In this document: piece by piece, positions 24,530-60,115 of the stretch | Position numbering within the stretch: position 1 is the stretch's first letter | How the letters are laid out: each line of letters opens with the position of its first letter | NCBI GenBank assembly: GCA_026419785.1 | Contig: JAODTK010005855.1 | Location: 496,001 to 560,000 of the forward strand | Length of the DNA: 64,000 nt | Reading direction: 5' to 3' | DNA from: Sclerodactyla briareus | Taxonomy: Eukaryota; Echinodermata; Holothuroidea; Dendrochirotida; Sclerodactylidae | Program-made: the position numbers and the translations under genes | The notes under the pieces: generated by a model | What the model saw: only the letters and a program-made list of their open reading frames with translations | Told to the model about the DNA's origin: nothing | Database searches by the model: none

Positions 24530-25596
24530 GCTGCAATTATAGGAACTGTATACACATTCTCTCTATAGGTCTTATGGCATTCTCTTATGGAATTGCATGT
24601 AATAAACAAGTCCTGTGATGAATGCTGCGATTATAGGAACTATATACGCATTCTCTCTACAGTTCTTATGCTTCTCTTAATTAGTATTGGCACCAATAAA
24701 AAGTCCTTTGGTGATGCTGCATTTATAGCATTCACTCTACAGGTCTTTGCATTCTCTTATGGCATCAGTATACACATTCTCTCTATAGGTCTTATGGCAT
24801 TCTCTTATTAGAGATTGCATCTAATAAAAAAGTCCTGTGATGAATTGCTGCATTTATAGCATTCTCTCTATAGGTCTTATGGCATTCTCTTATGCATTCA
24901 TGTGTGCACACTTCTCTCTACAGGCTTATGGCATTCTCTTAGAAATTGCATCTAATAAAAAGGGGGGGTTTTTTTTGGGGGCAGTTGGGGGGGGGGGGGG
25001 GGGGCGTCCTGTGGATGACTGCTGCATTTATAGCATTCTCTCTATAGGTCGTATGGCATTCTCTTATGGCATTCATGTGTGCACATTCTCTCTACAGGTC
25101 TTATGGCATTCGCGTATGGGAGATGCATGTAATAAACAAGTCCTGTGATGAATGCTGCGATTATATAGGAAACGATATACGCATTCTATCTACAGTCTAT
25201 GGCATTCTCTATAGAGATTGCATGACAATAAAAAAGTCCTTGTGATGAATGCTGCATTTATAGCATTCACTCTACAGTCTTATGGCATTCTCTATGGCAT
25301 TCATTATAGCATTCTCTCTATAGGTCTTATGGCATTCTCTTATTAGAGATTGCATCTAATAAAAAAGTCCTGTGATGAATGCTCATTATAGCCATTTCTC
25401 TCTATAGGTATTTATGGCGATTCTCTTATGGCATTCATGTGTTGCACATTCTCTCTATAGGTCTTATGGCATTCTCTTATTAGAAATTGCATCTAATAAA
25501 ACCGTCCTGTGGCTGAAATCTGCATTTATAGCATTCTCATCTATAGGTCGTATGGCATTCTCTTATGGCACTTTCTGTATACACATCTCTCTACAG
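24530..25596 (+). repeat. Tandem array of splice acceptor plus kinase exon start (14 copies)
   Basis: Fourteen copies of a pyrimidine-rich acceptor (ATTCTCTCTAYAG) are each followed by GTCTTATGGCATTCTCTTA or a close variant. In the phase set by the upstream exon (TG|G TCT TAT GGC ATT CTC TTA ...) a copy reads W-S-Y-G-I-L-L, and the best copies go on W/L-E-I-A. That is kinase subdomain IX, the start of the next coding exon. Each copy then meets stops (TGATGA) after about 16 codons. Between acceptors are 'GTCCTGTGATGAATGCTGC' spacers. Two spacing classes alternate, about 45 and 90 bp. A run of T and G homopolymers at 24961-25004 replaces part of one copy. The array directly abuts exon 25597-25740. 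Confidence 0.85.
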
Positions 25597-25740
25597 GGCT
25601 ATGGCATCTCAAAAAAAAAAAAGAAATTATGGAATTGGATCTCTGGGGAGATCCTTACGGTGGGCCTGACATGAAGGAGCAGGGGAGTACATCAAAGCAG
25701 GACGGATACTTCCACATGCCAGAATGTGTCCAGAAAAATT
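25597..25740 (+). CDS. Insulin-receptor-type gene, kinase exon 5 (subdomains IX-X)
   Basis: It starts at the fifteenth acceptor (CTCTCTACAG) and ends AAAAATT|GTGAGT. After a 12-A run the text gives Y-G-I-G, then L-W (frame 1) and G-E-I-L-T-V-G-L (frame 2), and further on G-Y-F-H-M-P-E-C-V-Q-K-N. This matches the family layout W-S-x-G-x-x-L-W-E-I followed by an (x)-G-G-Y-(x)4-N-C segment of the C-lobe. The middle (the substrate-site P-Y-x-G-L-S stretch) is not readable. The A-run and frame jumps suggest damage by array expansion or base errors. Confidence 0.7.
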
Positions 25741-26479
25741 GTGAGTTTATGCAGCCTTACAACACCGTTGTTCCTGCACCTGACTACACAGACCTGTTCC
25801 TGTTACCTGACACAATGATCGTTCAGCACTGGACAACCCTCTATCCTTCATGCACCTGGCAATACTACTGTTTTATGCACTTGAATAACACTGTCAATTT
25901 AAAGGAGAGGGGTACCTCGAGAAAAACTATATACATTGATCTAGTTCTCCAATGCTTTGTTACTTTCTGTATGGTAGTTGAGTATGGTAACAACCCTAAC
26001 CACAAGCCCACAGCATCCTATTGGACCAAGACATCAGAACCGAGAGTATTCACCCACACTCTTGGAAAACAAGTCACGACCATTTTTAAAGGCTTCTACA
26101 CTCACAGGACATAGCAACTCTGTTGGGAGTATGTTCCATTCTTTGATCACCGTATCATGAGGTGAGGAGAATTGTGAAACGGTTAGGAATTTGTGGGTAG
26201 GACAGTGGGGAAAAGAAAAATCTAATCATAACTGAGATGCAAGGACATTATAGGCATGGGAGGAGTGCTAGAAGATCATGCTTGGGTATGTAAATGTCAT
26301 CACAGCAACTGTCTGGTAGTGGACTAGGACTGATCTGGCACTTCTGGGAGTATGAGGAACCAAGATCAGTGGTCCTATATGTCATGTAGGCGAATAACAA
26401 TAGGAACCAATTGCACTGTAGGCATTCAGATACTGTATGAAGTTCAGGGCTCATTGGATAAGGGTAACTCATTGGGATG

Positions 26480-26650
26480 AGATAGGGGGATGCGTTGTGG
26501 ATGAGGATGGGGGGGGTGGGAACGTGTGATTAGAGGGGGGGATCATGTGGGTTAGATGGGGGGGGGGAATCATTGTGGATAGTTGGGGGGGGGGAATCGT
26601 TGTGGATTAGATAGGAGGGAATCGTTGTGGAGTAGATGGGGGTAATCATG
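26480..26650 (+). repeat. G-rich minisatellite, unit about 30 bp
   Basis: Repeated 'GGAATCGTTGTGGATTAGAT' blocks with long G runs lie immediately upstream of the last receptor exon. Complementary C-rich reading gives spurious proline-rich frames. Confidence 0.8.
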
Positions 26651-26703
26651 TTCATTTTTGTTATTATTGCTGTTGTTTCTCTCTGATATTTGACCAACAA
26701 CAG

Positions 26704-26952
26704 AACTGATGCTAGCCTGCTGGTCATTCCAGGGATAGCTCGACCAACATTCTCCGAGATGTGTCCATTCCTCTCGAATCATCAGTATTCTGCCATGACC
26801 TTTCCGACTCTAGTGTTCTTTCCATCCCAGCCGGAGAGGCCTCGGAGCAGCGGGCAGCGCCTTCTCCAGTGACCTTGAACACACCACCATGCTTGCCCAC
26901 AACGGCATGATACGATTACACCTACATGGACAAGGGGCGGGCCACAGCAATG
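26704..26952 (+). CDS. Insulin-receptor-type gene, last kinase exon and tyrosine tail
   Basis: Acceptor CCAACAACAG. The exon opens L-M-L-A-C-W-S-F-Q-G. A stop and a 1-nt shift follow, then RPTFSEMCPFLSN and P-T-L-V-F-F-P-S, matching the end of the kinase domain (M-C-W-x-(x)4-R-P-T-F-x-E). A further frame gives Y-D-Y-T-Y-M-D at 26911-26931. That supplies a YxxM motif in the place of the C-terminal Y-T-H-M of mammalian insulin receptor, a PI3-kinase p85 SH2 site. An in-frame TGA just before it is one of several lesions. The 3' boundary is uncertain: a GT at 26953 is possible, or the coding end may simply lie nearby. Confidence 0.8.
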
Positions 26953-58429: not shown

Positions 58430-58580
58430 AGGCTGAATCCTGGAGTGGGCGAATCCTGAATTTCACTGACCTTCTGGAGGGGACGTAAAATGGCGGTCCC
58501 ATGAGAAGGTTAGGAATGGTAACACTTTGATACCACCTTGAGATCATCTCAGCACAGTCGAGAAAGTGAGTTACATGGTG
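58430..58580 (+). mobile_element. SINE-body fragment
   Basis: It shares CGTAAAATGGCGGTCCCATG and neighbouring text with 1405-1640 but lacks a recognisable tRNA-like head. Confidence 0.35.
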
Positions 58581-58714
58581 CTCATCCGCGATCAATGTGA
58601 CAGGCCCATCGATGGAGCCTCACGGGACTTCCTGAACCTTTAGAATTCAAATTAAATCGAATATCAAGGCAATGTCTGTGTTGCATGAGCACTGCAGGAA
58701 GGAGAATAACTCAC

Positions 58715-58959
58715 GTCTGTGGGTGCTTCATCCCCAGCTGGTGGAGGATGTCCTCCTCACCCTGGGGGTGGCTGTAGCAGTGAGAGCCATGAAGGGCACC
58801 CCGGGGAACTTCTCCCGGAGCCGACAGAGGCGCTTGTAGTCGGGACGGAAGTCGTGCCCCCACTGGCTAACGCAGTGGGCCTCGTCGATGACGAACCTGG
58901 CGAGCAGCTTCCTGTGTAGAGGTGTCCATAGCGGAGATCAGCTTGGGGCTCGCGCTGAT
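58715..58959 (-). CDS. BLM helicase, DEAH-box exon (motifs II-III)
   Basis: Acceptor GCTCTTCCTCAG, donor CAGAC|GTGAGT. It begins [13 protein letters not shown], then after a shift [51 protein letters not shown], and after another shift [12 protein letters not shown] is the Walker B box (motif II) and T-A-T-A is motif III. The aromatic-rich [11 protein letters not shown] loop couples ATP use to DNA in RecQ proteins. The match to human BLM is near-complete. Confidence 0.95.
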
Positions 58960-59689
58960 CTGAGGAAGAGCCAGAAACAAGGACTATGTTCCTGTTCCAT
59001 ACTCCAAAGCAGTGATGGTGCTAAGGGGGGATGAGGGAAATTTTGAACCCAAACTTGAAGAAAAGAAATCCCTCCAAAACATATCCCCAGGGGGACTTTC
59101 TCTCCCACACATTGTTGATTTTGTAATTGCTCACTGCTAAATGCATATCAGGGTCCCTCTGTAAGTTCCAGTATCCCTCTTACAATAAATCAAAGTGAGG
59201 GAATTCCCTCCCAGATAAAAGGCTCGCGCCAACACTGCTCAAAGGCGCTCACATGGGCATTTGATGGAGGAGAGTGGGGTCTGGATCAATTTAATTTATT
59301 ATAATAAAGGAGTAAGCCTTTTGTTGAAAGGCAAAAGATGAATTACAACACAACCATAAACTAGGGGAGCAAAGTATTCAATAATAGGATTCTCGCATGA
59401 GAATTGCTACCATGTACTGGTAGTTGCACGCTATCTAGTAGTTTGTGATGACCGAGTCCTGTCATAATAGTTGACCATTGATGCTTCTAGTCATACTTTG
59501 CTTGCGACAGCCGAATCATCCGATAGGGGAGGGTTTTTTGGAAGGCAACTACCAACTGAAATGCCACATTCTGAGATGGTCTGACCATATGTATCATTTC
59601 TGAGAATGAAAAGCATGCAAGATGCTTGTCAAATTGGCAAACACTACCCAATCTGACCATTACTGTATGAACTGGGTATGATATGAATA

Positions 59690-60115
59690 TCATAACCTGT
59701 TTCTTGATGACAGAATCCCTACATGACTGTATATACTAGCAGACATTTTTTTTTTTGTTACTTTGTCCTGTAGTGGTATGATAAAATTCATTACCAGTCT
59801 CAGGAGTTAAAATGGTATTTAGCTTGATGAAAAGGAGCCCTAAATTAGAGTTGACTCTAGAAACTAGCAGCCATGACTTGATCGAGTGTGAGTCATGATT
59901 GAATAGTAATCACCTCTCAGAAGTGGCACAGAGTAGCTTGATGATAGAGTCCCAACAGGAGAGTTGAATGTAGACACCAGCAGTCATGACTTGGTCAAGT
60001 GTGAGTATGATATGAATATTCATTACATAGAGTAGCATGATGACTGGACCCCTCTATTGACTATAAATACTAGCAAGCCAAACTTGGTCGAATGTGTGAT
60101 GGGAATAGTCATTAC
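59690..60115 (-). repeat. Degenerate tandem copies of the adjacent BLM exon and donor
   Basis: Three or four eroded units of about 120-150 bp. On the minus strand each holds a version of GACCAAGnCnTGnCTGCTAGT, then CCTGTCATCAAG-like text (TCTATCATCAAGCTACTCTG in one), then ACTCCTGAGA and a GTRATKA donor-like end. These are exon 60116-60226 and its intron start. Stops and indels fill the copies. They lie immediately downstream of that exon in transcription. Confidence 0.75.

Follow-up and report, generated by a model that had tools for sequence, protein, structure and literature searches.

The window analysed here is a stretch of 64,000 nucleotides from the holothuroid Sclerodactyla briareus (contig JAODTK010005855.1, positions 496,001 to 560,000). 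An insulin/IGF1-receptor-like kinase is encoded on its forward strand and a BLM helicase on its reverse strand. The neighbouring kinase exons of the receptor gene were matched in database searches and in searches with protein fragments, and the exons of the BLM gene were matched to solved BLM structures with phmmer. Splice junctions were read off the sequence next to the exon matches. A putative receptor-kinase exon (25597..25740, forward strand) has splice sites readable in the sequence and no database match, its identity being suggested by a kinase-like reading. On the reverse strand, BLM exon H (51902..52085) was identified by phmmer against BLM structures, by its splice sites and by tblastn with a human fragment, exon F (56349..56475) by its splice sites and by the match of the exon and its copies to BLM, and exon C (60116..60227) by phmmer against BLM structures and by its splice sites. 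Additional phmmer searches for BLM exons in 39001-53999 gave one weak, irrelevant match in one frame and none in the other two, and one forward frame of 14003-28999 gave a low-complexity match only. The list of 17 exon intervals used below is incomplete, derives partly from searches with protein fragments and has some limits set by eye. The two genes adjoin each other within 20538-62470; human IGF1R and BLM lie on the same chromosome arm, and the adjacency is perhaps an old animal linkage.

Each of these four exons borders a tandem array in which its splice junction is repeated, as is evident both from alignment of each junction to its own intron, which recovered copies at all four arrays, and from a blind scan for local self-similarity. 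In the blind scan, from which low-complexity 60-mers were excluded, the four arrays were among the five large clusters in a total of 21, a large cluster being one of 18 or more positions and the next largest having 8. Tandem Repeats Finder called three of the four arrays, at 24508-25607, at 50724-51936 (96 bp, 12.6 copies) and at 55941-56473 (161 bp, 3.3 copies), and made no call for the fourth at score thresholds of 50 and 36, because its copies are too diverged. The junctions touched are the receptor acceptor at 25596/25597 and the BLM donors at 51902/51901 (exon H), 56349/56348 (exon F) and 60116/60115 (exon C). According to the junction alignments, the repeats take in about 35 bp of exon H, about 125 of the 127 bp of exon F and about 84 bp of exon C, while the reach into the receptor exon is 4-14 bp by strict alignment and about 35 bp by eye. 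The preliminary description had correctly stated that an acceptor with its exon start is repeated once and an exon end with its donor three times, and the junction alignments also bear out its placing of the extra copies downstream of the three BLM donors and upstream of the receptor acceptor. The same alignments do not support its claim of arrays starting precisely at the exon edges, as the units straddle these edges.

Array 1 (24508..25607, forward strand; Tandem Repeats Finder and junction alignment) lies in the intron upstream of the receptor-kinase exon and repeats the acceptor together with the exon start, in nested units of 23, 94 and 137 bp as resolved by Tandem Repeats Finder. Its copies show 89-93% identity in the junction alignment. 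It contains 16 TCTA[CT]AG sites, the authentic one included, of which 15 were aligned and one, at 25214, was omitted because of its different sequence context; at its start, the receptor exon itself differs from the copies by indels and by an A-rich insertion. Array 2 (50724..51936, reverse strand; Tandem Repeats Finder, junction alignment and donor motif) is composed of about 13 units of about 96 bp, each unit joining the last 35 bp or so of BLM exon H to the donor and about 60 bp of intron. Eleven of the units (authentic one included) were recognised by the donor motif and two were placed at the expected positions, and Tandem Repeats Finder detected higher-order periods of 96, 291 and 391 bp. 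Array 3 (55734..56474, reverse strand; Tandem Repeats Finder and alignments) comprises exon F, three long copies of it and a partial fourth copy, with a unit of about 161 bp and with identities of 93% and 83% in the junction alignment. Array 4 (59673..60200, reverse strand; junction alignment and blind scan) contains the terminal part of BLM exon C and the adjoining donor, followed downstream by four diverged copies with 81-82% identity in the junction alignment. No sequence is shared between arrays in a blastn comparison among the five large arrays (E 0.01), and each array therefore grew from its own junction. A shared mobile element or repeat family was rejected as their source on the same comparison. 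In all four arrays the unit lies across an authentic exon-intron border, splice signals are found in the copies and the extra copies are on the intron side, as in the anatomy of the so-called mirages of amphioxus.

The fifth large array (36966-37453) has a unit of about 92-101 bp in about five copies with 76-77% matches (Tandem Repeats Finder), and at least one of its units contains GTGAGTGAC. No exon was recognised beside it. Pfam searches found no family in the three forward frames of 28001-39000 and, on the reverse strand of 26001-39000, a sub-threshold match to Apo-VLDL-II only (E 0.047); the array is accordingly at most a candidate for a further mirage, perhaps as part of a gene that escaped recognition. 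As an array with no recognised exon, it indicates that large arrays arise away from exons too. The window also holds dispersed repeats. One family has three copies (60320-60620, 31516-31684 and 12842-13110) that are 69-73% alike by blastn and is perhaps a SINE, its start appearing tRNA-like by eye; ARAGORN and Rfam searches of the window returned nothing, including at this tRNA-like repeat. A second family (13100-13860, 13951-14078, 12455-12692 and 63659-63999) is 69-80% alike by blastn and partly near-tandem.

The best explanation, to which a probability of about 0.7 is given, is that the four arrays are ordinary minisatellites of the mirage kind, which span splice junctions and are tolerated inside introns. 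A short local tandem duplication, produced for example by replication slippage or unequal exchange, would have spanned the exon-intron border, and the extra copies would then have multiplied and diverged as in any minisatellite. The authentic splice site, being the first of the donors or the last of the acceptors, would be kept by the copy on the exon side, while the extra edges and splice sites would fall within the intron and be removed along with it, and the RNA would use the authentic sites only. The extra copies are probably harmless, being intronic, and the arrays would be tolerated because the exon-side copy retains the authentic site. The nested periods of array 1 and the higher-order periods of array 2 are minisatellite-like and count in favour of this explanation. 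Reasoning from splicing also predicts on which side the copies should lie. After duplication over a donor the first donor must serve, so that the extras come to lie downstream, whereas after duplication over an acceptor the last acceptor must serve and the extras come to lie upstream. The one-sided pattern seen is thus what three donors and one acceptor should produce, and the notion that this pattern needs a special cause finds no support. The proposal that tandem duplication across splice junctions has recurred within one genome is supported, and amphioxus mirages share the anatomy.

The preliminary description had further argued that ordinary minisatellites would not come to lie at exon edges four times by chance. 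This argument holds in part, as there is an excess per array under stricter criteria, but it was overstated with respect to the junctions. At a score of at least 40, a local copy is found at 4 of 28 junctions compared with 9.1% of 1500 random positions, and the corresponding figures are 2 of 28 against 7.7% at a score of at least 50 and 2 of 28 against 5.7% at a score of at least 60; junctions are thus not clearly over-represented. Considered by array, four of the five large arrays of the blind-scan set touch an exon border. When five arrays are placed at random, at least four touch a border with P 0.014 in the whole window and 0.053 within 20-63 kb, and at least four hold exactly one border with P 0.00011 and 0.00072, respectively; when no array may be placed over two or more borders, the values are 0.0002 and 0.0025. 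With all 9-10 arrays, or with only the Tandem Repeats Finder arrays longer than 300 bp, P ranges from 0.04 to 0.22. The excess of large arrays at exon borders, reckoned on an incomplete and part-by-eye exon list, is suggestive, and under the stricter criteria the four in five count against a reading of chance plus tolerance. They would fit a process aimed at junctions, for instance transcription- or splicing-coupled breakage or re-copying, which would make copies there more often (exactly one border touched by four of the five large arrays, P 0.0001-0.0025), and parts of the amphioxus literature report several other genes with such repeats. Such a process is nevertheless unlikely, given the lack of clear over-representation (4 of 28 junctions against 9.1% of random positions), the 24 of 28 junctions that have no copy at a score of at least 40, the P values of the wider array sets and the similarity search across arrays, which revealed no sequence signal common to them.

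A different objection to passive tolerance comes from the splice signals. The GT is present in 19 of the 20 extra donor copies: all 12 in array 2, three of four in array 3, where the ambiguous GT of the partial copy was scored as lost, and all four in array 4. This exceeds the expectation from passive decay, if the units are independent, and to that extent counts against the explanation by tolerated minisatellites. Across the 12 extra units of array 2, 11 of 95 dinucleotides are invariant, the donor GT included, and the 9-mer with the highest conservation in the unit spans the donor, its first base lying two positions ahead of the GT. Both observations speak for copies that are kept as decoy splice sites and tune the splicing of the neighbouring exon. 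However, the retention of GT is weak evidence for decoys because the units within an array are related and not independent, and the acceptor copies of array 1 were chosen by motif, so that the retention of their AG is no measure of conservation. Published RT-PCR results, in the passages of PMC3087553 that deal with them, suggest that splicing is undisturbed by mirages. A literature search on intronic decoy minisatellites found nothing relevant, and a decoy function is improbable. It is also doubtful that a junction-preferring process, combined with selection that keeps the splice signals, has created a store of decoys and a source of recurrent intron growth or new introns.

That the arrays are artefacts of assembly is very unlikely. 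The sequence does have an indel-rich look: nine of the 17 exon intervals of both genes (20538-62470) have no open frame, some of their limits being approximate, and a jumble of poly-G and poly-T lies near 24962-25004 within array 1. Protein similarity and splice sites are nevertheless good. Indels in the assembly are the likeliest cause of the missing frames and gene decay is a possible one; given an indel-rich assembly, the divergence between units would be partly inflated. The units differ, however, by substitutions common to subsets of units, which would not result from stacked misassembly and which therefore argue that the arrays are real, and resequencing of lancelet PGBD5, as related in part of PMC3902484, supported comparable repeats.

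That the copies are alternative, mutually exclusive exons is scarcely credible. Protein searches still detect BLM similarity in the exon F copies, but the long ones start some 2 bp into the exon and, when the copies are aligned, have no AG where the authentic acceptor would be; full units are only 31-33 bases apart (57 beside the partial unit). Of their exons, arrays 2 and 4 repeat nothing but the end and array 1 nothing but the start; tandem alternative exons each having an acceptor and a donor of their own were rejected, the copies being without acceptors.

Taken singly, tolerated minisatellites at splice junctions extend an existing list of genes. If four cases per 64 kb are typical, this genome has enough mirages to make a genome-wide test feasible. 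Two questions could then be addressed: whether introns are steadily lengthened and gained by tandem duplication at splice junctions, and how the spliceosome skips a dozen good-looking donors beside the correct one. The point at issue is whether the splice-site copies are actively kept, given how many of the extra donors retain their GT.

The original mirage paper is reportedly that of Canestro et al. in 2002. Later work describes amphioxus mirages, in the relevant passages, as tandem repeats across the exon-intron border with the same anatomy as found here and with both borders affected; the number of units differs between haplotypes, RT-PCR products are normal, and an intron-gain model was proposed from the mirages (PMC3087553). 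Excerpts of the literature report or cite them in Adh3, retinol dehydrogenase, presenilin, the globins BflGb6 and BflGb9, troponin C and PGBD5; part of a further report added PGBD5, where resequencing in the lancelet agreed with the repeats, and cited troponin C (PMC3902484). According to passages of PMC2632668, whole exons or parts of exons, together with splice sites, occur within the introns of VCBP3. The potato RdRp gene is reportedly a case of intron gain by tandem duplication. The present arrays resemble intron gain by duplication of AG/GT proto-splice sites, a model cited in the part of PMC3087553 concerned with intron gain, in that a tandem duplication within a gene carries splice signals, but differ from it in that no new intron is seen and the copies sit in existing introns. 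The array at 36966-37453 is of the ordinary intronic minisatellite type and differs from the four in that neither a recognisable exon nor a Pfam match adjoins it. With amphioxus mirages, as these are described in part of the literature, the four arrays share border-spanning tandem repeats with AG/GT, the involvement of either border, units of 10-160 bp and diverged copies, and they differ in the genes concerned, here BLM and an insulin/IGF1-receptor-like gene, and in the occurrence of four arrays within 36 kb. The anatomical definition of a mirage fits them, and they are a new set of examples of a phenomenon already published for amphioxus.
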